Below are positions 1 to 59,443 of a DNA stretch of 64,000 nucleotides, in pieces. Numbering within the stretch: the stretch's first letter is position 1; each line of letters opens with the position of its first letter. The notes under the pieces were generated by a model. It was not told where the DNA came from, did no database searches, and saw only the letters and a program-made list of their open reading frames with translations. The translations under genes and the position numbers were made by a program. Source of the stretch: Otis tarda. Taxonomy: Eukaryota; Chordata; Aves; Otidiformes; Otididae. The stretch is from assembly GCA_026413225.1 (NCBI GenBank), contig CM048575.1, forward strand, positions 6,290,001 through 6,354,000. Direction: 5' to 3'.

Positions 1-3000
1 GTGCCTGTTCTGACGTGAAAAGCTGGCCTGTCTGTGGTAATTGGCTGGGCTAGGAGACCCCCTCCTGCAGCAAGCTCCTGCTGGGTACCAGAGCCGGGAG
101 GGGATCCCGCCTTTGGTACCTGTGTTTAACATCTGGCTTAATTCCAAAGCTGTGAGATGTTGTTCAGTGGCCCCAGCACCTTCTGTTGGTCGCCAAGCCG
201 TCCGTGAGTCTGGACATTAACCATATCTGTTATGAAACGCCATATACTGGGGGTTTGGGCTTGTTTTTTATTTTCTTTTTTTCTCCTTAAAATTTGCACA
301 AGCCTGGCAAACAGGGGTTGATATCTTCAGTCCTCAGCAGCTGGCAGCTCCCTCTGGCTGGCAGCTTCGTGGCCTCATGTTGTTACGGCTGAAGAGTCCT
401 GCGTGTTCCTAACGCAGTGCGAAGTACGCGCCTGGTGTCCTTTAATCGATGGAAAAGGGAACTCTGGGTACCTGAGGGCATCGCGTGGTGGGTGCCAGCA
501 GCAAGTGGCGTCCGTCTCTGCCGCCCGGGCTGTGCGAGGCAGGTCCTTTCCCGTACCTGCTGCGTTATCTCACTGTGCTGCTTTCGTGAGTTGCACCCCT
601 GTCCTCGGGCAGAAATCAGCCTCTTGCTGGCGTGAAGGATGCCACTGCTCCTCTGTGGATGGGTGGGCAGTTTATTGCCTTTCTCTGTGTTTAATTTAAA
701 AACTGGAAACTTGTTTAATTGGCTTTTTTTGAGCTATGAAAGCCAGAAGGCTTTAACTTCCTCGGTTCTATTTATATTGCTGCACTACTGATTTGTGTTG
801 AGCTAGATGAAGATTAAACACTATTGAATGCGAGGGAATGTTCCGTCGCTGAATGTGGTCGTGGCTGCTGCTGAGTTTATTTTTCTGGGCAATCAGCTGC
901 CTTCCTCGGGCACCAGCGCCGGAGCCTGCTGCTCTCCCGAGTCCCGAGGCATCCGCCTCCTGCCCTCCCGCCTCTGCCAGGCGCAGGGCTTGCCTCTCGC
1001 TCGCCTGCGTCACCGGGCGGGCCACCCTCCGGCTTCTCCGTCACCAGGCAGGCTTCCCCTTCCCGGGCTGCTCCTGCACCCGCTCTCCCAACGGCTCCTT
1101 CGCTCCCAGGCGCCTGGGACCACACACGCGAGCTGCGCGATGGCCGGACACTTAACTCTTGGGTGACACCACACTCGGATGCGTTTCCCTTCGTTGGGAT
1201 GTAACATGAACAGACTACGAGAAAATGAGGTTTTGGAGCTGCAGGGATGGATCAGGTGTGGTCCTGGGACCGTGCCTGGGAGCATTTTCTGCTCTCACAG
1301 CAGAGCTGTTGGGCTCTTGCTGGTTCTGGCCCCGGGGACTCGTGCTTTTTGAGCCTCTCGCTCCCGCCCGTCCCAGCGAAGTCCCCCCTGCAGCAGGTCG
1401 GGGCTGGGTGCGGTGGTTCAGCCATCAGGCGTTTGTTGCTGCAGAGATCAGCTCCCCTCACGGGAGACGCGGCACGTGCTTTCAAGCAAGCCTGGCTGCT
1501 TGGTGCAGAACCAGGAAGAATTAAAATCCTGGTGCAGCTGTTGCCGCCAGCACCTTTGTTTAGCTGAGGTTATTGTCTTCGGCCTCACATTTCACTGTGG
1601 GGTAACGAGCGTTTGGGTTGGGGTGCTGTGGTGAGCTGGCAGCACCGCCCGCCAAGGCTGGATTTTGCGGTGGGCTGTGGCGTTCCCTCCACGCCGAGTT
1701 AGTCGTTTGTCATCGCCGGCGCAGGTTTGTACTGGGAGCTCCTGCTGTCAGACTCCCAGCTCCTGTTAGTATTCCCGGCTGTGCAGCCTCCTCCTCGCTC
1801 CGCGTGTTAACCCTCCGCGCCGCTGAGCCCTCACCTTCACCGGGCTGCAGGAAACAGGGACGCGCAGCAGCCGCACCCCGGCCGCATGGGAGCACGAGGG
1901 CCTGGGAAGCGGCCGGAGGCGCGGGGACCCTCCCAGGTGAAGGGGGTAACTTTTGGCCCAGCACGGGAAGCCCCTGACACGGGGAACGGTGCGGGCTGTC
2001 TGCTTTGGCGTGCCGTTAGTGCCGGCCTCTCCCCAGGTGTTATTTTGAAATCCCTCGCCGCCCTCTCCTCCTGCCCCGTGGCGTCGCGAAGATCGGGGCA
2101 GGTCCGTTCCCCAAGCGCAGGGAGCGGGGCGAGGTTTCTGCATTGCTATGCAGTGTGATTGCACAATTAGGGACGCTGGTGACGAGCTACCCGTGAGTGG
2201 AAGTTAAAAGCTGAGACATCTGTCGGATGAACCACCGGCTTCACTTGGCTTTCTTTTCTTCTTTAACATGTTCAAGCACTGGTGAAGATGTGTGGGGCAA
2301 ATGTTGTGATCTAAGTTTAAATAGTTTGCTCTTAAATCTTTTCTTCGTTCTTGTGTTTAGCGGGGGCTGCTCAACCTGTCTGAACTTTGGTTTAACGGTG
2401 TTTGTTGATTGCAGTGTCACTTGGATCCAAGTGATTTTTCTAAAACACAGGATTTCTTGCAAATAAACAGGGAACATGTTTTGCTGCTGCTCAGCTTGCT
2501 TCTTTTCTTTCTCCGGTCTCAGCTGGGAGATGGTTCCCAATAACACCACCATGCTCTTTGGGCAAGAATGGGAAGTCCTCTCGCATTCCTCGCGCCCAGC
2601 GCCTGGCAGCAGGGTCTGGGCGGGCGCTGCTGGCCGAGGGCCGGCCCTTGCCCCTGTCCTGTGGCGTGCAGCGGGGCTGTGGTGCCAGCACAGCTAAGAG
2701 AGCTGCTAAGAGAGGGCCAAGTCCGCTCCTCACTCTGCGTGCTGGTCGCTGTGCCTTGCGTAGGGCGCAGGAGAGGCCGAGCCTCACGTTACGGGCCCTG
2801 TGTTTGTGTTTTGACCCCTGGTTTGCTTATCTGCCCCCGCTTTAGCGGGACCAAAACTCGCTTCTGCTACTCAAAGCTGCCTTTCAGCCTAAGCCCTGAC
2901 CCGGTTCGGCGTCCCTGGCCCGCCCAGGGCTCTTCCCTGGCAGCCGAGGCAGGACAACTCTTGATTTCACTGGAAAGCGAAACAGCAGCAGCGTCGGGGC

Positions 3001-4836
3001 TCAGGCTGCACCCCACAGGGATAACTGTTCCTCCTAACGGAGCAGAGGAACGCTTATTAATTAGTGGAGTCCTTGAAGGCGATGACGAAGGCTGCCCAGC
3101 TGTCGCTGTGGCTGGCTGCTGTGGGGAGCGCTCCTTCGCGCCGCGACGGCCAGAAGGGACCCGACGGCACCGCAGGGCGCGGGTTTTCCGGAGAGAGGAG
3201 GAGGCTCACCCTCAGAGCTGCCCTTCTGTCTGTGGGCGTCTCGCTGGGGCCCTTGGAGTTCACGCTGCTCAATGTCACCCAAGGACCTGAGAGACCAACT
3301 GTGCTGGGCTCCCCAGCCCACTGCCTCTGCCCACCCGCGCGGCAGCAGCTGCCTTTGAAGTAAAGCCCCCCCGTCCCTCCCCAGGCACCCACATCCCGAT
3401 GCTGCAACGCAGCTGTGCCTGGCAGCAGCCAGCCCTTGCTGCTGGAGATCCGAGGCAGCTGGAGGCTCCTGCCTGCCACCCCTGTGCCATGGGTGCCCAG
3501 CTGGGTCCCTTCCCCTTGTGTCACCCAGCTCTGCTATTTTTTTTTTTCCTTCTCCTCGCTCGCTGTCCCTGCATAAGCTCTCCGAAGGGCTGCCCTTTCC
3601 CGGCTGCTCCCAGCCGCCTCCCTTTGCTGGCTGCTCAGCATCGCTCCACATCTGCTGGCTCCTTGCGGGAGGAGACCCAGCAGGCGCTCGCTCACTGCAA
3701 GGGAGCCCCCGTGTCCCCCAGCTGCGGGCTCTCGGGGCTCGGCTTCTGGGGGGGAAGCTTGCCGCAGCCCCGGGGCAGCGCGGGTAAGAGCCGGGATTGC
3801 TCGCTGCCCCGCGGGCAAACGCTGCTCCTGCCTCAGAGCCACCCCAGCTTCGTTAGCGGAGAGAAATCTCGGAGAAACAGATTTTGTTGCAGGAATTTCA
3901 CAGCTCAAGAAACTGAGGCAGCAGCTCAAGGGCTCTGCGCACCTCTGCGGAGGCCGTCCCGGCGTTTTGGTGGTTCAGCGGCACGGGGAAGCCCCGGGGT
4001 CCCGTGGGGAAGGGGGTGCGTGGATGAGGCCCCTGGCACGGCGATGCTGCAGCCGACTGAGCCCGAGACCAGAGTGCCTGCGGGGCTGCAACGTACGGAG
4101 CCGCAAATTCAACCCCGAGCTCCCCAGCTCTGCCTGGCCCTCCCTGAGCGGCGCCCGTGCCTGGAGGAGTTAAACAAGAAAAAAGCTCTTTCTGGAGCCT
4201 CGAGGGAGAGCGTGTTTTTATTCTCAGCCCTCTGCCTGCGCTGTCCTTGCTCCGAGCATGCGGATTTGGCCCTGCTCCCCAGTGCCTCCCCGTCGCTGGG
4301 ATTCCCTGGATGGCTGCTGCTTCGCCTCTTCCAGGCGGGCTCTCCCCGGCCTCGGCGCCTGCGCTACCAGGAGCTCCCACGCCTCACCCGGGGTCTCCGG
4401 GAGAGGCCGGGGTCCACAGGGTGCTCAGCTGGAGGAGCCACCCCGGCCGCTCTGGCTGTGCCCCAGCCCTGGGCCGCAGCACCCCGTGCGTCCCTCCTGC
4501 CCGGGCACGGACCCGCTGTTGGTCCCTGGGTCGCTGCTGGCCTGGTGGGTCGGTTCCCGGCATTTTGGGGAGAGCGCGGGCTGGCTCGGGACGGGGGCTT
4601 TGCCCAGCATTGCCTCCCCTCTCCGCGCCCTCGCCTACCGGAGCGGGGCCCCGAGGGGCGTCGGGGTGCGATGCGGGTGCTGCCGTGCAGGCCCACGGGC
4701 ACCGTCACCCTCCGTCCGTCCCTCCGTCCGTCCGTGCGGGGCCCCGCGTGCCAAGTGAGTCCATCTTTCCATTGTTCAAACAATCTCTTTTCCACACGCG
4801 GTGCCAAAGCCTCCCCGCTCGCTCCCGCGCGCGCCA
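1..4836. other. GC-rich flank without a recognisable gene
   Basis: No reading frame here resembles a known protein, and the long open frames (for example on the plus strand at 3399-4856) look like products of high GC and few stop codons. Composition shifts from mixed (1-900) to strongly GC-rich. It could contain 5' exons or promoter sequence of the muscle microRNA primary transcript that ends downstream, but I see no splice pair that I would defend. Confidence 0.5.
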
Positions 4837-4951
4837 GTATATTTAGCTGCCTCTAAGCCTCTACCTTTCCTTATATAGGAGAGGCCAAACGAATTTCGCA
4901 CTCTCATTATTAATAGCCTGAGAGGAGCTCTTCGGAGCCTGCCAAAAATAG
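4837..4951 (+). promoter_or_regulatory. MEF2/SRF site cluster, putative muscle enhancer or promoter of the miR-1b/133c transcript
   Basis: An AT-rich patch sits inside GC-rich DNA and carries four muscle-type elements in 115 bases. They are GTATATTTAG at 4837-4846 (MEF2-like, one mismatch), CCTTATATAGG at 4869-4879 (CArG-like, one extra base), TTATTAATAG at 4907-4916 (exact match to the MEF2 consensus YTAWWWWTAR) and CCAAAAATAG at 4942-4951 (MEF2/CArG-like). miR-1/miR-133 loci are known targets of SRF, MEF2 and MyoD. The link to the hairpins 3.6 kb downstream is inferred from this and from position. A different transcript could use the element instead. Confidence 0.5.
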
Positions 4952-7900
4952 CAGGCAAACAGAGCGCACCCGGGGCGGGGAGGGCGTCGTGGCAGGCGGG
5001 GAGCCCCGGGACCGCGGCCGCAGGGACGCCGCGCTGCTTTTTCTGGCTTTTCCCTTTGGGAACCACAATCAGGTGTCTCCCAGCATCCTGCCCCCGCCGC
5101 AACCCCGAGCTGGGGGTTCCCCTCGCCCCGCCAGCCCCTCACAGGCAGAGGTAGGACCGGCGGGAGCGCGGGGGCGGCGGGGTCCCGGGGTGGGCAGAGC
5201 AGCCCCGCACCCCCGGGCTGTGCTGCTCCGGATGCTGGAAGAGCCGTCCCATGGGTGCTGGGGCCACCCAGAGCGGGTGGCCCAGGGCAGCCTGGGGATC
5301 CCCAACCCCGTAGGATCCCCCCGGCCCAGGGGAGCCCCTATGGCTGCGGGGGTGGCAGGTTTCGCCCTCCCGAGAACCCCACGGGCTCCGCTTCGCCCTC
5401 CGACCTGCCGCGGGGCCCAGCAGCACGTGTTGGCTCTCCCCATGGTGCCGGTCCAGGACCCCAGCGGGCACCCGGGGGACGCGGGGCAGGGGTGCCTGGC
5501 TGGGTGCTGCTGGCTGCCCCGCCTGGGAGGGAGAGGATTTCCCAGCAGAGATCACCCACACGGCATCCCCGAGCCGCGTGCCGGGGCATCGAGCCCGGGA
5601 CGGGGCGTGCGAAGAGGGGGCTGCGGGGCGCCCAGCAAGCGGAGGGTCTTCACCTGCGCCCGGAGGCACCCGCGTCCCAGGCAGGGTCTGCCTTAAATCC
5701 CCCCCTCCCTGGCGAGGAACTTCTCCCGCCGAACTGGAGGATGCTGCAAGCTGAACTGGAGGATGCTGCAAGCTCCTGCGGACGAGCCGGAGGAGTCCTG
5801 TGGCAAAGTCAAGGCGAGCGGGGAAGCGGCGTGCTCGTGGCGGGTGTCACCGCAGCCCGCCGTCACCAGCCGAGCCCGCACCCCGCCGGTGTCACCTCCA
5901 GGACCGTAAGTGGCCGTGCGGGGTGAGAGGTGCGGGCTCTGGGGGTCTGCGGGAGGCAGGGGGGCTCTCCCTGCCGCCGGCGTTTAACCTTCAGCGAGGT
6001 GGGCTGGGGATGCTGCTGCCGCCTGCGCTCGGCTCCCGGCAGCGGCTCGGTGTGGGCGAGGACGGGGCGACCCCCGGGCTGGGGGTCACGGTGGCCCCGC
6101 ACTGCTCGGGGTAGCCGGGGCGGAGGAGCGGGGCGGCAGCGAATTCTCCATGGGGCTGAGGGGGGCAACGGGGCACCCCTGGCCGGTCCCGGCTGCAGGG
6201 GGGCGGTGGGTGGTGGGTGCTTGGGTGGGTGGGCAGCGCGGCAAGGCAGAGCCCGGCCCGGCCGCCTGTGGGTGCCCCCCGGGAGCTGGGATGCCCTCGG
6301 CCACCCAAAGCGGGGACACCCCACGCCGTGGGACGGGGCGGGAAGGGAAGCCCAACTCCTCGGCGCCTCGGTGTCGTGTTTTGGACAGGCGTGGTGGGGG
6401 GGAGCGCTGAGCCCCATGGCCGGGGGCACCAGGGCTCCGCAGGCCACGTGCCCGCAGCCCCAAACGGTGTGATGCCCGCAGGCGAGGGGGTTGGGGTGCT
6501 CCCCCAGGCCCCCCCCACCAGCGCTCCCCTCGCACCCACCTCCCTCCTCCTCGCTGGGCCTCTTGGCGTTTTTTAAGGCGCGCAGCGGCTGCCGCAGTGG
6601 GTTTGCTGGGGGTGGCCGGGCCAAGGAGAGCCCTTTGCGGGGGGGGGGACATCGCTGAGCAGTAAAACTTGGAAAGGCCCCTGCGAGGCAGTGACCGCAG
6701 AGCCCGGCCGGGCACGCGGCGCTGGGGGGAGCGGGGAAGAAGGATGCTTCCTTTTATAGCCAGGCTGGGGCTGCTGGGTGCCGTGCGAGGGTGCCACCAT
6801 CGCCAAGCCGGCACCCTCCGGCTCCTCTGCCCGCCCCCCCGCAAGGCCGTTCGCCCCCCGCACCCACAAACCCCTGCCCGGCGCAGGGAGCTGCTCTCGG
6901 GGTGCGTGAGGGACCTGGGGGCTGCCCGGGTTGGGGGGTCCCGGGAGGGGCGTCTGCAGCCATCAGCGTGGGGCGCGGGGCTGCCTGCGGCGGTGGGGGC
7001 ACCCCCAGGGCTGCGGGGGGGCTTGCGCTGATGCCCGGGCGCAGAGAGGGCGGTGGGGCAGAGATGGGCCATGGGGCAGTGCAGGGGGGGGTGGGAGCGG
7101 GCAGGGGCGGCCCACGCTGGGGCTTGGGGACATGGGGTCCCCTGGATGCGGGAAGCATCCTCTGGTGCCGTATGCGGCCCCCCAAGGTCACTGGGAGCGC
7201 CCGCCTGAGGGCTGTGGGGGCTGCGCTGTGGGACGGGGCCGTGTGGACCCCCGGGCTGGGGTCCCTCCAGCACCGCAGCGGGAGCCCACCCAGGGTCAGC
7301 CCAGGTGGCTGGGGCTGAACTGGGCCGGGATGCCGCAGCCCTGACCCTGCGCCCCGGCTCCGGGGGCTCGGGGTGAGCGCAGCTGCCAGCTTTCGGCTCC
7401 CGCTGGGCCCCGACGGCCCCCGGGATCCCGTGCGGCAGCACCCCGCTGCGCCGCGGGGCCGGCAGAGCCCGAAGGGTTACGTGGGTGCCTCTCTGGAGCC
7501 TCCAGCCTTGGGACACCCGCTCAGTCTGCTTTTTGGGGGACAGGGGTGCTGGTCCAACCCCACTGCTGCTGCTGGGCTGGGGACTTGGGTGCTGGGAGCT
7601 GTGGGGTGCCCAGCGGCGGGTCAGTGGGGTCCGGCCACGCGGGAGGCCGTGGGGTGCTGGCGGAGCATCCGGGGGGGACGGGGGCCGCGCTGGCAGCGCC
7701 AGGGGTCACCCAGCAGCATCGGTGCTGCCCGTGGGTGCCGCGAGCGGGGCCGGCGTGGTGAGGGGGTGCTTGGCACGCACTGGCTCCTTGCAGAGCGGCG
7801 CAGCGCGTGTGGCCGTGGCTCCCGGCGCTGAGTCACAGCTGCACCACGCACGGCCGGCCCCGCATCCCTCCTGCCCGTGGCCTGCCCCCCCCCGTGTCCC

Positions 7901-8499
7901 CCTCGTGCCCCTGTGCTGGGACTGGCAGAGCTGGGACCCCTGGGACCCTGGCACTTGCCATCACTCTGCTCCAGCCGCAAATTTAGGGGTTGGGAGGTCA
8001 CCAGGGTCAAGGCGCAGAGGGGCTGTGGTGATGGTCACCCCCTCCATCGCCCTGCCCTGGCCGAGGGGCCCCCCCACACCCCGCTATGGTCTCAAGCCCC
8101 TCAGATCTCAGCCGAAACCCCCCCTCTCGTGGGCAGAGGCATCTCCGGGCTCAGACCCCCGGGCAGGGTGGGTGGGGGCGCGGGGGTCCCTCAGCCACAC
8201 CGAGCTGCACGTGCTGCTCCGGCACAGGGGCCACAGGGACGGGGACAGGGTGGTGGGGGCAGCCACCCCCCAAAATACAAGGTGGCGAGCGCGTCCCCAG
8301 GCTGGGCACCCTCCGGCCGGCGCAGATGCCCTGCGTCCCAGGCACACGCGTTGGCCGTGGCACCGTCTCGCTCTCCGAACACACGGGTCCCCTTGCTCCG
8401 GCGTGGCCGTGGGCGCCATGGGACCATTCGGGCAGCGCCAGCGCCGGGACGCGCCCACGGCCGCCGACTCCCTCCGGGGTCCCAGCCTCTCCCTCCCAT
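4952..8499. other. GC-rich spacer, probable primary microRNA transcript or its intron
   Basis: No protein gene is supported. Open frames on both strands (for example minus 6086-7516 and plus 7485-8555) are rich in P, G, A and R, overlap each other, and show no family resemblance. The stretch lies between the MEF2/SRF cluster and the hairpins, so part of it is likely transcribed as pri-miRNA. Confidence 0.4.
5731..5774. repeat. Two-copy 22-bp tandem duplication
   Basis: The 22-base unit beginning GAACTGGAGGATGC occurs twice back to back, at 5731-5752 and 5753-5774, with no mismatch that I can see. It is not in a supported gene. Confidence 0.85.
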
Positions 8500-8572
8500 C
8501 CCTACATACTTCTTCATATGCCCATATGGAGTCGGCCGGCGTTATGGAATGTTAAGAAGTATGTATTTTTGG
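8500..8572 (+). ncRNA. miR-1b precursor hairpin
   Basis: The 3' arm holds a mature sequence at 8545-8565 starting TGGAATGTTAAGAAG. It carries the miR-1 seed GGAATGT and differs from miR-1a by a single A-to-T change at mature position 9, which is the form named miR-1b in chicken. The 5' arm at 8504-8526 (ACATACTTCTTCATATGCCC) pairs with it, and the loop is about 18 bases and GC-rich. miR-1 is a muscle microRNA that represses targets such as HDAC4 and promotes myocyte differentiation. The miR-133 hairpin 73 bases downstream confirms the bicistronic miR-1/133 arrangement. It is transcribed from the plus strand, and no host protein gene is visible. Confidence 0.95.
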
Positions 8573-8644
8573 GCTGGGACCCCCACGTCGGGACCCCCCC
8601 ATCGCCATCGCCGGCCCAGGCGGTGCCTGCGGAGAGACGGTGCG

Positions 8645-8716
8645 TCCCTGGGGCTGGTAAAAAGGAACCAGATCAACTTGCAACTGGATTTGGTCCCCTT
8701 CAACCAGCTGCAGCGG
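8645..8716 (+). ncRNA. miR-133c precursor hairpin
   Basis: The 3' arm holds the 22-base mature sequence at 8689-8710, beginning TTTGGTCCCCTTCAACC, which has the miR-133 seed. The 5' arm at about 8651-8672 (GGCTGGTAAAAAGGAACC) is the passenger strand typical of miR-133 precursors and folds onto it with a short A-rich loop. miR-133 represses SRF and related targets and balances miR-1 in proliferation versus differentiation of muscle. The partner miR-1b lies just upstream on the same strand, so one primary transcript is expected. The name miR-133c is from recalled chicken nomenclature. Confidence 0.95.
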
Positions 8717-8941
8717 CGCATGAGCTACGGCACCCGCTGCGCCCCGGCCCGAGGGGGCCGCGTCCCGTCTGAGAGGGCTCGGGGTGGGGAGTGGGCGCCG
8801 GGTGCCGGGGAAAGGGGGCTTGCAAAATGGAGCTTTGGTTTTTGAGGGTGCCAGGTGGAGGGGAGGCAGCTGGAGGGGCTGCACCTCGCCCGCCAGCCCG
8901 TGGAGGTCTCCGCGCTGTCCAGCCCACCCACGCTGCCCAGC

Positions 8942-9641
8942 AGTGCCCCATAAATAATGTGCCGTAAAGCCCCATAAGGCCCCGTAACGCCTCAAAAATG
9001 CCCCATAACACCCCATAATGCCCCATAACGCCCCACAGATGCCCCATAGGGCCCCATAAAGCCCATAAATGCCCCATAACACCCCACAGATGCCCCATAG
9101 GGCCTCATAAAGCCCAAAAATGCCCCATAACACCCCACAGATGCCCCATAGTCCCCTTAAATGCACCATAAAGCCTCATGAAAGCCCCACAGATGCCCCA
9201 TAAAGTCCCATACATGTCCCATAAAGCCCCATAAGGCCCGATAAAGTCCCATAAATTCCCCTAGATGCCCTATAAATGCCCCATAGATGCCCCATTAAGC
9301 CCCATAAAGTCCCATAAATCCCACCATTAAGCCCCATAAAGTCCCATAAATCCCCACAGATGCCCCATAAAGCTCTGTAAGTCCCCCTAATGTCCCACAG
9401 ATGCCCCATAAAGTCCCATACATGTCCCACAAAGCCCCATAAATCACCACAGACGCCCCACAAACCCCATAAATGCCCCCTAAGGCCCCCAAAAGCCCCA
9501 TAGATGCCCCATAACCCCCCACAGATGCCCCACAAAGCCCCATAAGCTCCCATAAAGCCTCATAGATGCCTCATAAAGCCCCATAACTCCCCACAGATGC
9601 CCCAGAAGGTCCCGTAAAGCCCCACAGACGCCTCATGAAGC
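8942..9641. repeat. Minisatellite of degenerate CCCCATAAA units
   Basis: About 700 bases consist of imperfect copies of a 9-12 base unit around GCCCCATAAAG or GCCCCACAGAT. Higher-order repeats of roughly 50 bases are visible at 9020-9150, where the ATAACACCCCACAGATG block recurs. Because the array lacks stops on the minus strand, it creates spurious W/G/Y-rich open frames there. It begins about 225 bases after the miR-133c hairpin and ends about 200 bases before the interferon-response element of the next gene. Confidence 0.9.
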
Positions 9642-9846
9642 CCAGCCGCCACGGCACGGGCGTGAGGAGCCTCTCTCCGTGCCCGTCGCATCCTCCCCTC
9701 CGCAGCCCCGTCCCCGTGGGGGGGTTTGGGGCGGGGGGCAAAGGGTCCCCGCGGGGAGCAGCCCCGGGGTCCCATCCCCCCCCCGCCCCCGCGCCAGCAG
9801 AGCCCGGCACAGGCGGGGTTAACCCGAGACGGACCGGGAGTTCGGG

Positions 9847-9914
9847 GAAACCGAAAACTCGACGGCACCTTTTCTCGGGAATTTGTTGTTCTGACGTCAG
9901 CCAGGCCCCGCCCA
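9847..9914 (+). promoter_or_regulatory. Interferon-response promoter of the IFI6-like gene (ISRE, CRE, GC box)
   Basis: GAAACCGAAAACT at 9847-9859 matches the ISRE consensus GAAANNGAAACT closely; one extra A lies in the second half. TTCTCGGGAA at 9871-9880 is a GAS-like STAT site with four-base spacing. TGACGTCA at 9892-9899 is a perfect CRE, and GGCCCCGCCCAC at 9904-9914 is a GC box. No TATA box is obvious. The cluster lies about 430 bases before the start codon. ISG12-family genes are classic type I interferon targets bound by ISGF3, so this fits the gene downstream. Confidence 0.8.
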
Positions 9915-10284
9915 CGGCAGCAGATCCTCGCGGGCAGCGGACGGAGAGGTTCGGGGGCCGGGGTGCTGGGACCCCCGACGGGTGTTTGGGGACAGCACCC
10001 CCTTCTCGGGGTGGACGGGCGGCAAAAGCGGGGGGGCTGCTCCCCGGGGGGCTGCTGGCCAGGGAAATCCTGGGGGGGAAACAACGCGGGGTGTGGGATG
10101 GGGGGGCTCTGTTTTTGTGGGGTGGCCGGTGGCTCGTGGCGGGGGGGGAGAGGGAGGCCGGGCAGGAGAGCGAGACCCCCACGGACCCCGCTCTCCGCCC
10201 ACGCAAGAAATTCTTCTCCTTCCCCGAAGGAGCGGCCTCCGACCGGACACCCCTCTCTCCAGCAGCCCCCTTCGCCGTCCCGCC

Positions 10285-12300
10285 ATGGGTGAGCTCGCGT
10301 GGGCCGGGCCGTACCGGTAAAGCTGCCCCTTTCCCGGCGGTTTTGGGGCAAGGACGGGCGGCTGCCCCCCGGAGGGAGGCCGGGGGGAGGGAACGGGATG
10401 GGGCTGGGGGCACCCCTGGGAGCTGACCGGCCCCGCTCTCTCCCCTGTCACAGATTTTCTCAGCTCTGCCGTCGGAGCGACCGTGGGCGTGGGTAAGGAG
10501 CCGGTGGGCGCGGGGACGCCTGACGCCGTGCAGAAATAAATCGCTTTAACGGGGCTCCCCGCTGCTGCCCTGCGCACACAGACCCCCTCCCCAAAACGCT
10601 ACCCTCCCGCAGACCCATGGGCAGGACCCCATCGATGCCCCCGGCTGGGGGGGTTGGTCCTGGGACCCCCCGCAGCACCCACCCTGCTCCGGGCTGTCCC
10701 GGGCGAGCCGGAGCTCTGCCTCTGCGCCCCACTCCCGTTTTGGGGCTGGGGGACACGGGGGGCTGAGGAGTGACCCGAGGGTGAGGGTTTTGCAGCCTGG
10801 GGACACACGCGTGGCTGTGGGAGCGTCGCCGATGCTGGACTCGCTGTGGCTGCGGTGCAGGCGGCCCTGGGTGCGGCCCAGGAATCCGTGGCCACCGGAA
10901 CGCTGCCTGTAAATCCGTGGCCACCAGAACGCTCTCTCCAAATCCGTGGCCACCAGAATGCTCTCTCTAAAAGCCACGGCCAATGGCTGCTGTAGCGCAG
11001 TCGCTCTGTGAGTGCTCCCGGCGCGGTGCCGCGGGGCGTCCGTGGCGTCACCGCGCTGCGCCCCATGTTTCAGCCTCCCCAGGTGGTGCCAGCAGCGTGA
11101 TGAGGGCCTGAGGTGGCCACGGGAGTGGGGTCCCTCAGGGTCCCCCCTGCTCTGGGGTGTCCCCACAGCTGTGGGGATGCCCGATGGCAGCAGGGAGGTG
11201 AGGTCTGGGGGGGCTTCTCCTCCTTGGGGGGCTCCCTCAAGAAGTGGGGTGCAGCAGGGGCTGTCCCTGGGCTGGTAGTGGGGGACCCGGTCAGGCTGGG
11301 GGCGCTGCAAGTGGCGGGGCTGGGGGGACTTTGGGCGCAGCTGTGTGGGAAGGGGTGGCTCTGGCCTGGAACTCTGCACCCGCTGCTGCAGCCCCTCACA
11401 CCTCTCCTCTCCTCCCCGGGGAGGGGGTGTCCCCATCCCTGCACCCCGCAGCCCTCGCTCCCCGCTCTGACGCCTCTGTCCTTTCCGGGGGGCCGGATCC
11501 GGCACACGGGTGGTAGATGTGGGTCGCAGAGACCACCCTAACGCCGCCGCGTCCTGCCTGCAGGAGTGGCACTCGTTGGCATCCCGGCAGGCATCTGCGC
11601 GCTGGGCTTTACGGGAGCCGGCATCGCCGTGGGGTCCGTGGCTGCCAAGATGATGTCGGCTGCGGCCATAGCCAACAACGGAGCCGTGGCTGCCGGCAGC
11701 ACCGTGGCCCTCCTGCAGTCCGTCGGTGAGTGGGGAGGGCGGGGGGGCTGACGGTCATCCCCGGAGGGTTGCGGGGCTTGGGGGGGATTATACACGTGGC
11801 TTGCTGGAGAGCCAAACAAAGCCTTTAGCCCACAGCTGGGCTGAACCGCCCAACTCTGTGGGGAAGGGATAAATCCACGGACCCGGTACCACGACGCGGT
11901 AGGAAAAGTCAGGACGAGCTGGTGGGTAGGGCACCAAGGCTGAGGACGTCAGGGTGCAGGTAGGTGTCTGCTCTTCTAGCAAGAACAAACCTGCGTTCGT
12001 CGGCAGCGCGGGCCAGAGCCAGAAAGGGGCCAGCAGAAACGGGCTGGCTGTGCTCGGGGGGCAGAGCCCGCTCCCAGGCAGCTCCCCGGCGCGGTTTGGA
12101 GGGGTCCCTGGCTTTCTCTGCCTGGTGCTCGGTCCCTCAGCAGGCAGCAGCGATGCTCCCAGGCCATCACGCCTCTTTCTGTCTCCGCAGGAGCTGCAGG
12201 TCTCTCTCTTGGTGCCAAAGTTGGGCTGACATCGGCCCTGGGCTCGCTCGGTGCAGTCATCGGTGGCCAGCTGTTCAACGGGGGAGACGGCTCGGAGTGA
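10285..12300 (+). CDS. ISG12-family interferon-inducible protein (IFI6/IFI27-like)
   Basis: There are four coding exons: 10285-10288, 10454-10492, 11564-11725 and 12191-12300. All introns are GT-AG and phase 1. The first coding exon supplies only ATGG before its donor, and the second starts after TGTCACAG. The product is 104 aa, small, and rich in Gly, Ala and Val. It has the family hallmark GFTGAGIA at about residues 28-35 and the motif [12 protein letters not shown], followed by [13 protein letters not shown], so most of the chain is the two-to-three-helix hydrophobic ISG12 domain. Family members sit in mitochondrial or ER membranes and modulate apoptosis and antiviral defence. The sequence core is closest to IFI27L2, while the chromosomal setting suggests IFI6, hence the tentative symbol. 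There is no clear cleavable signal peptide, unlike human IFI6. A non-coding 5' exon is possible. Confidence 0.9.
10883..10969. repeat. Three-copy 29-bp tandem repeat in IFI6-like intron 2
   Basis: The unit starting AATCCGTGGCCACC begins at 10883, 10912 and 10941, giving an exact 29-base period with a few substitutions in the tail. A partial inverted copy of its core (AGCCACGGCC) follows at about 10972-10981. It lies in the intron between coding exons 2 and 3. Confidence 0.85.
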
Positions 12301-12444
12301 TGAAGGCTGCTGAAGCCAGGAGGGTGCCTGAGCCCGAGGTCCCTGCCAGGCAGCGTGGCAGATGCTGGGAAGCCCCCCACAGACCACCCCCCCCTTTTCC
12401 CCATGACTCTGCGGATCTGCGCGAGCAGTGAGCGCGTTGAAACC

Positions 12445-12450
12445 AATAAA
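12445..12450 (+). terminator. Poly(A) signal of the IFI6-like gene
   Basis: AATAAA lies 145 bases after the stop codon and is followed by GT-rich sequence (GGTGCCGTGGTGGTCAGTG, from about 12469), the expected downstream element. Cleavage is probably at about 12465. Confidence 0.85.
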
Positions 12451-12465
12451 GTTGCTTTACGAGTG

Positions 12466-13181
12466 CGCGGTGCCGTGGTGGTCAGTGTGCGGTCGGGGCC
12501 CCGTCACCCCTCTGGATTCGCAGTGCTCCAGGAACAGACCCACCCTTGCAGTTTTTTCCAGTCCTGCGCTCTCCCCCCGTGAAAAGCTGACGCTGGCAAG
12601 GCTGTAGGTCGGGTTGTTATAAACTGCGCTCAATTCACGTTGTGCCCAGAGCTGTTTTCTCAGCAGCCTCTTGAAATCCAAAGGTTACGCCAGCTGCACA
12701 GGCACTCACCTGGCTGTGGGTGCACCAGCACAGTTCAAAACAAGTGTAAACTTACTAAAAACCCAAAATACGGGAGGTAAGCGATGGCGTTTCCGTGTCA
12801 CTGTGGCTCTTGGGCGACTCCGGCCTTCCAGGACGACAGAGCAAAAGCGACGCTGGGTCCTGAGGGGTCTCCTGCTCACTGCCGGCATCGGGCACCGCTC
12901 CAGCGGCCGCCGGTTCCCCTGCACTCGGTTTGGGGGAAGGCTGTAGCAAACTGCTGGTGATCGATCCAACTACAGCCCATCGCAGAGGCTTGGAAGGGGA
13001 GCAGAACTCGGTGTGAGCTGCCGTACGGCCACGCGGGGAAGAGCAAGGCTTGCTGTGAAGATATTAAGCTGCTGTTTTAATGCTGGCTTAAAAACAACTG
13101 AACCGTCCCCCGCTTAAAATCCGTGAGCTTCTACTTTTAAACTTAGATTCCAACATCATACAGGAAATGAGGATGTACTCT
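12466..13181. other. Intergenic spacer between convergent genes
   Basis: No coding sequence, RNA gene or clear repeat is seen. The spacer separates the 3' end of the plus-strand IFI6-like gene from the most distal candidate end of the minus-strand ZMYM4 transcript. GC content falls across it, marking the boundary between the GC-rich left part and the AT-rich ZMYM4 part of the window. Confidence 0.5.
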
Positions 13182-13369
13182 TTTATTAAGGTTAAAGGTT
13201 TTTAATCACTTTTCCAGAATACAGATACGATTCAAACAAAAACTATTTTTGGGGTCTCGATAATTCACTTATTAATACCATACATCGAACTCTATAAATT
13301 CTCATATAAGAAAAAGTCTTTTTAATATAGGTTATGATGCACTGGTGACCTATTTAAATCTTTTGAAGT

Positions 13370-13520
13370 AACACTTTGCAGTTATATAGCACCTTTCATC
13401 ACGGGGCTGCAAAGCATCCTACAGAATTTAGCCTCATAATGCCCAAACGAGGTAGGAAAGTCTGGCCAATTTACAGATGGGTACAACCGAGGTACGGACT
13501 GGCATGGGACAAAACACGAG
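13370..13520 (+). repeat. Ancient amniote SINE/LINE-tail-like fragment
   Basis: The order TATAGCACCTTTCATC, then AAAGC with ACAGAATTTA, then GAGGTAGGAAAGT, then CCAATTTACAGATGGG resembles an old, widely shared amniote interspersed repeat whose consensus contains ATTTTACAGATGGGGAAACTGAGGC. The match is by memory and diverged, so the family is not assigned. Confidence 0.4.
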
Positions 13521-16500
13521 GCTTCACCGACGCAACAGCAGTGACGTGACGCGTACGCTGGATCCTGGGCTGTGTAACGAGTCAGTGGCTCAACTGGGGA
13601 GAAAGCCAAGAGTGGCCACCCACACCCTTCTCTTAAAGAACGAAGCCTGGCTCCCAGCTGGTCGAAAAGACCTTTCCAAATCCTTCTGGCTTTTTGTGGT
13701 ATAAATACATTAAAAACTCCAAGACTCGTAGACCTAAGACCCTAGGTATGCCATTCCTTGGCATATCCAATAGTGACCATGACCCATGCCCACGTTGGCT
13801 AATTTTTCTTAACAGCATCCAGTCGAGATGCTTTGAATAGAAAAATGATGAAACCTAGACACTCAAATATTCGTACTAGTTTCCGGCCGTGCACAAACGC
13901 CCACCTGCCCAAAGCACCCTTCCCAGCACCCTGCAACGGCTCCTCTGCTACCGCTCGCTCCGTTATTGCTCGTGCTTTCTGGCACGTCCAAAATAATTTC
14001 CTCATAAAGCACAACAGAAAAGAGAAGTTATCAAATGCTTCTTGGAATGGGAAGGGCAGGAAACTGAAGATAAAAATTCAAGATCTTACGGCTCAGCCAG
14101 GTGCTCTGGACTTGACGTGGCAGCCACAGGATGAAGTTAGAAGGGATCTGCTCATGCTAGTGGTCAGATTAATTAAATTAATTTCCCCCTTAAGTTTAAA
14201 AATATCCAACTTTTAAGAAAGGGCTGGGGTCAACTTCTTAACAAATGCAATACTGTTGTGCAGAAACACCCTGTCCTCCCTCTCCAAGGCAACTGTTTCC
14301 TCCTGGGGAAGATACAAAAGCAGAGTTAGTCCTACCTGCCTGACAAACCTGCAGCCGTCATGCTGGGGAAAGAGATTTCTCACAAGCAGCTGGCCACGGT
14401 AAGAGGAGAAAGGAGGTGATGGTGTATGGACCGGTCTTGCTATTTCATCTGCCAAGGATGAGGAGAAAAGCGGTGGCTCACGCCTGCTCCACTCGTACCA
14501 GCCATCAGCAAGGCAAGACCTGCAGCTCTGAGAGGCAGAGGACGCTGCCATCCAGCTTCCTTGCTCCTAAAACTCCTTCTAGACTTCCTCCTCAGCAAGG
14601 GTCCGTGATTTTTACAGATTTTTGGTGCTCACGCTTGGTAACAAAACACCGTCCTCAAAACTGGATAGTTTCTCGTGCAAAAGAAAGGAACAATAACTGC
14701 TAGGCAAGCTCAACTGCTCAAAAGTTGTTTTTGTAACCTTGTAAGGCTGATGATGCTACTGGGGATGATGCTACAGAAGACAGCAAATCTTAATTTTGCC
14801 CCCGCTCTGTTAGGAATGTTTAAAATGGACGACTCACGAAAGAAAAAGAGGGAGGGTTGTGCTGACGGGAGCAGAACTCCAGCACAGACAGAAAGCACAG
14901 CCACGGTGGTTTGAGAAAAGGACTGTAAGGATTTTGTACTGGAGCATTTGTTCTGCTTGTTGGTTGTTTTTTTTTTTTTAAGGCAACAGTGAAACTATTG
15001 GTCAAGGGACTGCGAAGAATTACTAAGATTCTTACCAAAAACCAAAGACTTTATTGCACGTTCAGAGTCACTTCCATGACCCTGGCACTGGAACAGCACC
15101 GATGGAGCCGCGCCGCTGTGGGAGCACGCCCCGGGGAAACGCAAAATGGGTGACTGTGCTGCTGCCGTATTTCAAGTCTCTGAGGAGCCATCACTCAGCT
15201 GGAGACCACTGCCAGAGAAATCCAGGGGTTTCTTGTAGATCAGTAGTTGGCAGAATAATTCACAAGACAATTTGACTTCTTTTTGCACCTAATCCTGTGG
15301 CATTCAGCGTGTCCCCAGTTTCCTTCTTTACTCAGCCAAAGCCAGGACAGAGCAGCAGGTTTGCAGTGAGAACTACCAGGAAACCGCCAGCACCGTGGAT
15401 GTAAGTCGCACTCCAGAAGCATTTTAAACAAAATTCTCTGCAAAATCCAAAGACTTGCATTAGCAGCCAGAACTGTGAATACACTTGATAAAGAGTAACA
15501 CGACACGCTCACGTCCAAGCTCTCGAACCAGTCTCAAACAGGGATGCCACCAGCCCTGCCCTCTGAAAATGAAGGAGAGATAAATAACGTGTCTAGCAGT
15601 GGGAAGGCATATGACAGAAACCCTGTTAGCAGGAAGCATCATCTTCTGTTTTTCCTTCTCACACTCATCTTTGTCGTTTCTCTGTCCACACCGAGACTAC
15701 AGCAGGGTTTTTCTCCTTAAAAGAATATTTCAAGCAATAAACATTGGTGCATGGCCAGCAAATGACTCAGATATGTTTATTATAAACAATTTTGTCTAAG
15801 TGTTCAGAGCTTTGATCCTGGGTGCATACTCTATAAATATATTTTAATCCTTCAAGGTAATGCATTTTATAAGTCAGTGTGAACTCTGGCCAGGCTGACT
15901 AGAAATTCCTCGAGAGGCAGACAGCCCAGGCACACCCCGGACAACGCATGCCACGGCCAAAAGGCCTCCAAGCAGAACGTATCCGACCAGAGAAACTGAA
16001 ATTACGACGACTTGTTCTGTTAATTATATTATGGAAAGACACTGCACGGAACCCTTTCTCATCTCAGAGCCGTTAAGTACAAGGAGTTAGCACAATGTTC
16101 AACAACTTTGCCTTCAGCCAGTCAAGCTTAAGGCGATTTCCTTGCCGGGAGAACGTGAGGGGCAAATATCTTTCATTCCAGGTACCTGGAAATAACTAAT
16201 GTATGTGAAAGTGCTCACAGACAAGAAAGAGTGAGAGTCTTCTGAGAAAGAAAAGTCAGCAAGTTACTCATAAGATACAAATATACTACTTTATTCTATG
16301 GGAATATTTCTATTAATGTTTGTTAAAGGAAAACTCAGATGTGGTATTATTTTTTAGACAATCCCCACGCAACAGCTTGTCCTAACTGCTGCCTTGCTGA
16401 CTGCCCGGGGGCGGTCAGGGAGGGCAGGGCGCGGGCAAGGGCAGCCTGCCGCGGACAAGAACAGTGCACTCTTGCAGGGGGTGCCCAGGAAACACAGAAG

Positions 16501-18499: not shown

Positions 18500-59443
<40,944 letters not shown>

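Follow-up and report, generated by a model that had tools for sequence, protein, structure and literature searches.

The presence of two neighbouring hairpins of the miR-1 and miR-133 families in the window (the whole 64-kb stretch of DNA analysed here) raises the question of which vertebrate miR-1/133 pair they represent, and of what this pair may contribute to muscle. An earlier note placed the hairpins at 8500-8716 and named them miR-1b/miR-133c. This identity is supported, and the probability that the locus is the avian mir-1b/mir-133c pair is put at about 95%. The pair is real and already catalogued in chicken, and hence is not new.

Both hairpins are recovered in an Rfam cmscan search of the 64 kb. 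The mir-1 family (RF00103) matches 8495-8573 on the + strand over its full-length model (59.4 bits against a curated cut-off of 45.6; E 6e-10), which marks the mir-1b precursor, and the mir-133 family (RF00446) matches 8645-8716 on the same strand, again full-length (68.9 bits against 55.5; E 7.7e-14), which marks the mir-133c precursor. A tRNA is the only other of the three Rfam matches that reach their cut-offs across the window. The two hairpins are separated by 71 bases, so that a miR-1 sequence with U at position 9 is followed within 1 kb by a mir-133 hairpin on the same strand. Folded alone, the mir-1 hairpin reaches -36.4 kcal/mol (z -4.56; none of 200 shuffled controls equally stable) and the mir-133 hairpin -41.1 kcal/mol (z -4.33; 1 of 200). 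The fold of 8480-8730 as one piece, a check that the earlier note had proposed, is also stable (z -3.51; matched by none of 200 shuffles). CNNC motifs occur 17 and 18 nt beyond the 3p ends, but are given no weight because this C-rich DNA offers four CNNC starts per hairpin within 12-25 nt. The minus strands of the hairpins are stable too (z -3.21 for mir-1 and -4.20 for mir-133), and antisense miR-1 products are known from mouse, both of which would suit processing of the hairpins from the opposite strand. Such processing is nevertheless extremely improbable, since the Rfam search, which covered both strands, gives matches at the cut-offs on the + strand only, and it is this strand that carries the known mature sequences.

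The mature arms carry the identification. Mature miR-1b-3p (21 nt) is present as an exact string at 8545-8565 (+), in the 3p arm of the mir-1 hairpin, where it carries the seed GGAAUGU and differs from miR-1a at a single place, with U and not A at position 9 (8553). Mature miR-133c-3p is likewise exact at 8689-8710 (+), being identical to miR-133a-3p over 22 nt, with C as nucleotide 23. Both mature sequences also agree with those of chicken miR-1b and miR-133c. The seeds, the lone position-9 difference and the positions 8545 and 8689 that had been proposed from the letters are all borne out, these positions being the starts of the 3p arms, which the earlier note had called ends. Within the predicted fold the position-9 U faces C8515 in an unpaired 1x1 mismatch, and a 22-nt 3p arm (8545-8566) with a 5p arm from 8504 leaves a 2-nt 3' overhang when the structure is read by eye. 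The miR-1b 21-mer, searched for exactly, occurs in neither a viral nor a prokaryote collection, in which near records may be missing, as expected for a vertebrate gene.

Order and spacing point the same way as the mature sequences. In the available part of a 2009 survey, mir-1b-mir-133c figures among the 20 chicken clusters listed from miRBase 13, with gga-mir-1b at chr23:4663912-4663975 and gga-mir-133c at chr23:4664051-4664129 (PMC2777939). These entries start 139 nt apart and are 64 and 79 nt long; placed on the window, they would occupy 8502-8565 and 8641-8719. Order, printed lengths and offset therefore fit, and the likeness to the chicken pair lies in these and in the mature sequences.

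The other vertebrate pairs have identical families and arrangement, and could on that ground be what the window holds. The mir-1-1/133a-2 and mir-1-2/133a-1 pairs have in common with it the bicistronic order, the miR-1 seed and the miR-133 mature sequence, and mir-206/133b has the order and the seeds. The miR-206 22-mer, however, has no match in the window at up to 4 mismatches, and the mature sequence found is that of miR-1b and neither miR-1a nor miR-206, which excludes these pairs unless the base was changed independently. The two miR-1a pairs also differ in their chicken chromosomes, chr20 and chr2 for the miR-1a copies against chr23 for mir-1b in the survey text available (PMC2777939), and in their neighbours: ZMYM4 is the sole neighbour found here, whereas GATA5, MIB1/GATA6 and the neighbours of 206/133b are those named for the other pairs in the accessible part of a fish survey (PMC4177693). 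That the window carries one of these three pairs is accordingly a very remote prospect, and the locus is best read as mir-1b/mir-133c.

ZMYM4 is the nearest identified gene, and the one gene identified in the window. Its recognised exons occupy 18503-46500 on the minus strand (the first exon may lie further upstream), and the final coding exon stops at 18503, approximately 9.8 kb downstream of the mir-133c hairpin; gene and microRNAs are thus convergent. The protein resembles human ZMYM4, and its domains and relatives are in keeping with this. Six of the nine ZMYM4-type frames have Pfam matches above the cut-off (QRICH1 in one, zf-FCS in three and DUF3504 in two); the remaining three (45880-46500, 35519-35890 and 27038-27367) have none, and the TRASH_ZMYM4 model appears below its cut-off only. 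The N-terminal exon (45880-46500) has 26 relatives. Among them are turkey zinc finger MYM-type protein 4-like, at 84% identity over 85%, and a differently named protein of the turtle Platysternon, at 83% over 86%; no hit came from a search of PDB sequences with this exon. Five other relatives are closer to the window (88-94%) than is the turkey ZMYM4-like one (75%).

In agreement with the earlier note, no host gene is visible within the scope of the tests: none of 31 reading frames chosen from 1-12500 has a Pfam family; these are the longer frames and not all of them, and exons that have no Pfam domain would be missed. The G+C-rich open frames of this region, including those that cross the hairpins, are most likely due to chance. 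G+C content is 0.59-0.72 in 1-12000, 0.50 in 12001-16000 and 0.37-0.42 in 16001-56000, the part with ZMYM4. A minisatellite at 8954-9643, with approximately 65 copies of 10-base units (ATAATGCCCC and kin; 68% match), starts about 240 bases past the mir-133c hairpin. The tRNA match (37996-38062, +; 41.0 bits) lies inside ZMYM4 on the opposite strand, with the anticodon CTT (Lys) by eye and five model positions missing between the anticodon arm and the T arm; ARAGORN, run with the bacterial code, makes no tRNA call there, and the match is perhaps a tRNA pseudogene or tRNA-derived repeat. A short repeat at 25358 resembles the 3' end of CR1 elements, which suits a bird or reptile.

Upstream of the hairpins, a candidate muscle promoter or enhancer was picked out at 4837-4951 (strand unassigned) from a motif scan and the sequence, the choice being made after the fact. 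Four A/T-rich sites fall inside these 115 bases of otherwise G+C-rich upstream DNA: a one-mismatch MEF2-like site spotted by eye at 4837 (GTATATTTAG), a CArG-like and TATA-like site at 4869 (CCTTATATAGG), which as a TATA element reads better by eye on the minus strand, a MEF2 consensus at 4907 (TTATTAATAG) and a CArG-like site at 4942 (CCAAAAATAG). A strict CArG box and a MEF3 site were sought in 1-12500 by motif scan and neither was present. In a shuffle test of 1-12500 that was devised after the sites had been seen, a MEF2 consensus and a CArG-like site within 100 bases of each other arose in 0 of 500 whole-region shuffles and in 8 of 500 local shuffles (500-base blocks). Two or more such pairs arose in 0 of 500 and 1 of 500, respectively, although hits at 4869 and 4870 overlap, so that this count in part includes a single site twice. 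The SRF- and MEF2-like sites suggest, as a possible lead only, that the pair might have a muscle promoter of its own some 3.6 kb upstream and so might have kept independent muscle control despite a small output, a proposal that we regard as doubtful.

If the pair acts as its family does, a single + strand primary transcript would carry both hairpins, and Drosha and Dicer would release miR-1b-3p and miR-133c-3p, which may repress the same classes of muscle mRNA as do the better expressed copies. The seed GGAAUGU (positions 2-8) is common to miR-1b, miR-1a and miR-206, and since it is unchanged here the targets of miR-1b should equal those of the other two. The change at position 9 should matter little, and miR-133c should act as miR-133a. 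A muscle function is thus suggested by family membership, and the likeliest role of the pair would be a small addition to the same miR-1/133 dose.

Published read counts are low. In the available part of the chicken survey, miR-1b reads occur in all four lung and trachea libraries, far fewer than those of miR-1a (mir-1b/mir-1a-1 reads: 63/471 in uninfected and 10/551 in infected lung; 11/405 in uninfected and 66/10438 in infected trachea), and the mir-1b-mir-133c cluster appears there as expressed in trachea but not lung (PMC2777939). For chicken skeletal muscle, the accessible counts are 1 miR-133c read in layer and 0 in broiler, with 126 and 67 for miR-133a (PMC3107184), a split that is uncertain in both directions because 22 nt are common to the two; this scarcity makes a main muscle role doubtful. 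Elsewhere, in the portions available of other reports, miR-1b-5p is named in turkey muscle satellite cells, miR-1b and miR-133c in turtle gonads, and miR-1b in the proximal regenerating tail of Anolis, where it is up together with miR-1a, miR-133a and miR-206. In chicken, miR-133c-3p is reported down in infected airway cells and miR-1b-3p up in infected trachea. The accessible text of a pigeon muscle paper contains no miR-1b. The pair is probably the fourth vertebrate miR-1/133 copy from the early genome duplications, weakly expressed and partly redundant.

Low counts of this kind also suit a decaying, nearly silent copy, in which the hairpins persist by ancestry and not by function. This reading is compatible with the mir-1b/mir-133c identity and competes with the functional part only. 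The pair may be a beta-subgenome copy. Peterson et al. describe, in the part available, beta-subgenome microRNA paralogs as less expressed, lost over time and changing more in mature sequence (PMC8789304), a pattern that the position-9 change would fit if the pair is indeed a beta copy. Decay is nevertheless unlikely, as both hairpins score above their family cut-offs with intact mature arms, and the name miR-1b is in use for chicken, turkey, turtle and Anolis, which implies, if these names mark one gene, that the copy has persisted from roughly the sauropsid ancestor onwards.

That the pair is missing in human, as the earlier note suggests, is plausible. In the available literature on the pair, no statement was found that human or mammals lack mir-1b/mir-133c. 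The earlier note's view that birds and other non-mammals are known to have the pair finds support in the four sauropsids above, for which the text available gives names without sequences. The fish survey, in its accessible part, describes three miR-1/133 pairs and an extra shark copy, and no 1b/133c was found there (PMC4177693). In pig, 'miR-1b' and 'miR-133c' are different sequences according to the part available of PMC2644714, so that presence or loss in mammals cannot be read from names. Dog, rabbit and sheep papers use the same names with neither sequence nor position in the text available, and bta-miR-133c also occurs in the literature; these names neither show nor exclude the locus in mammals.

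The sequence confirms an additional, already known copy of the principal pair of muscle microRNAs, located beside ZMYM4, and the pig paper illustrates a naming trap, in that 'miR-1b' and 'miR-133c' there mean other sequences. A promoter of its own, if true, would help to explain the retention of the pair in sauropsids.
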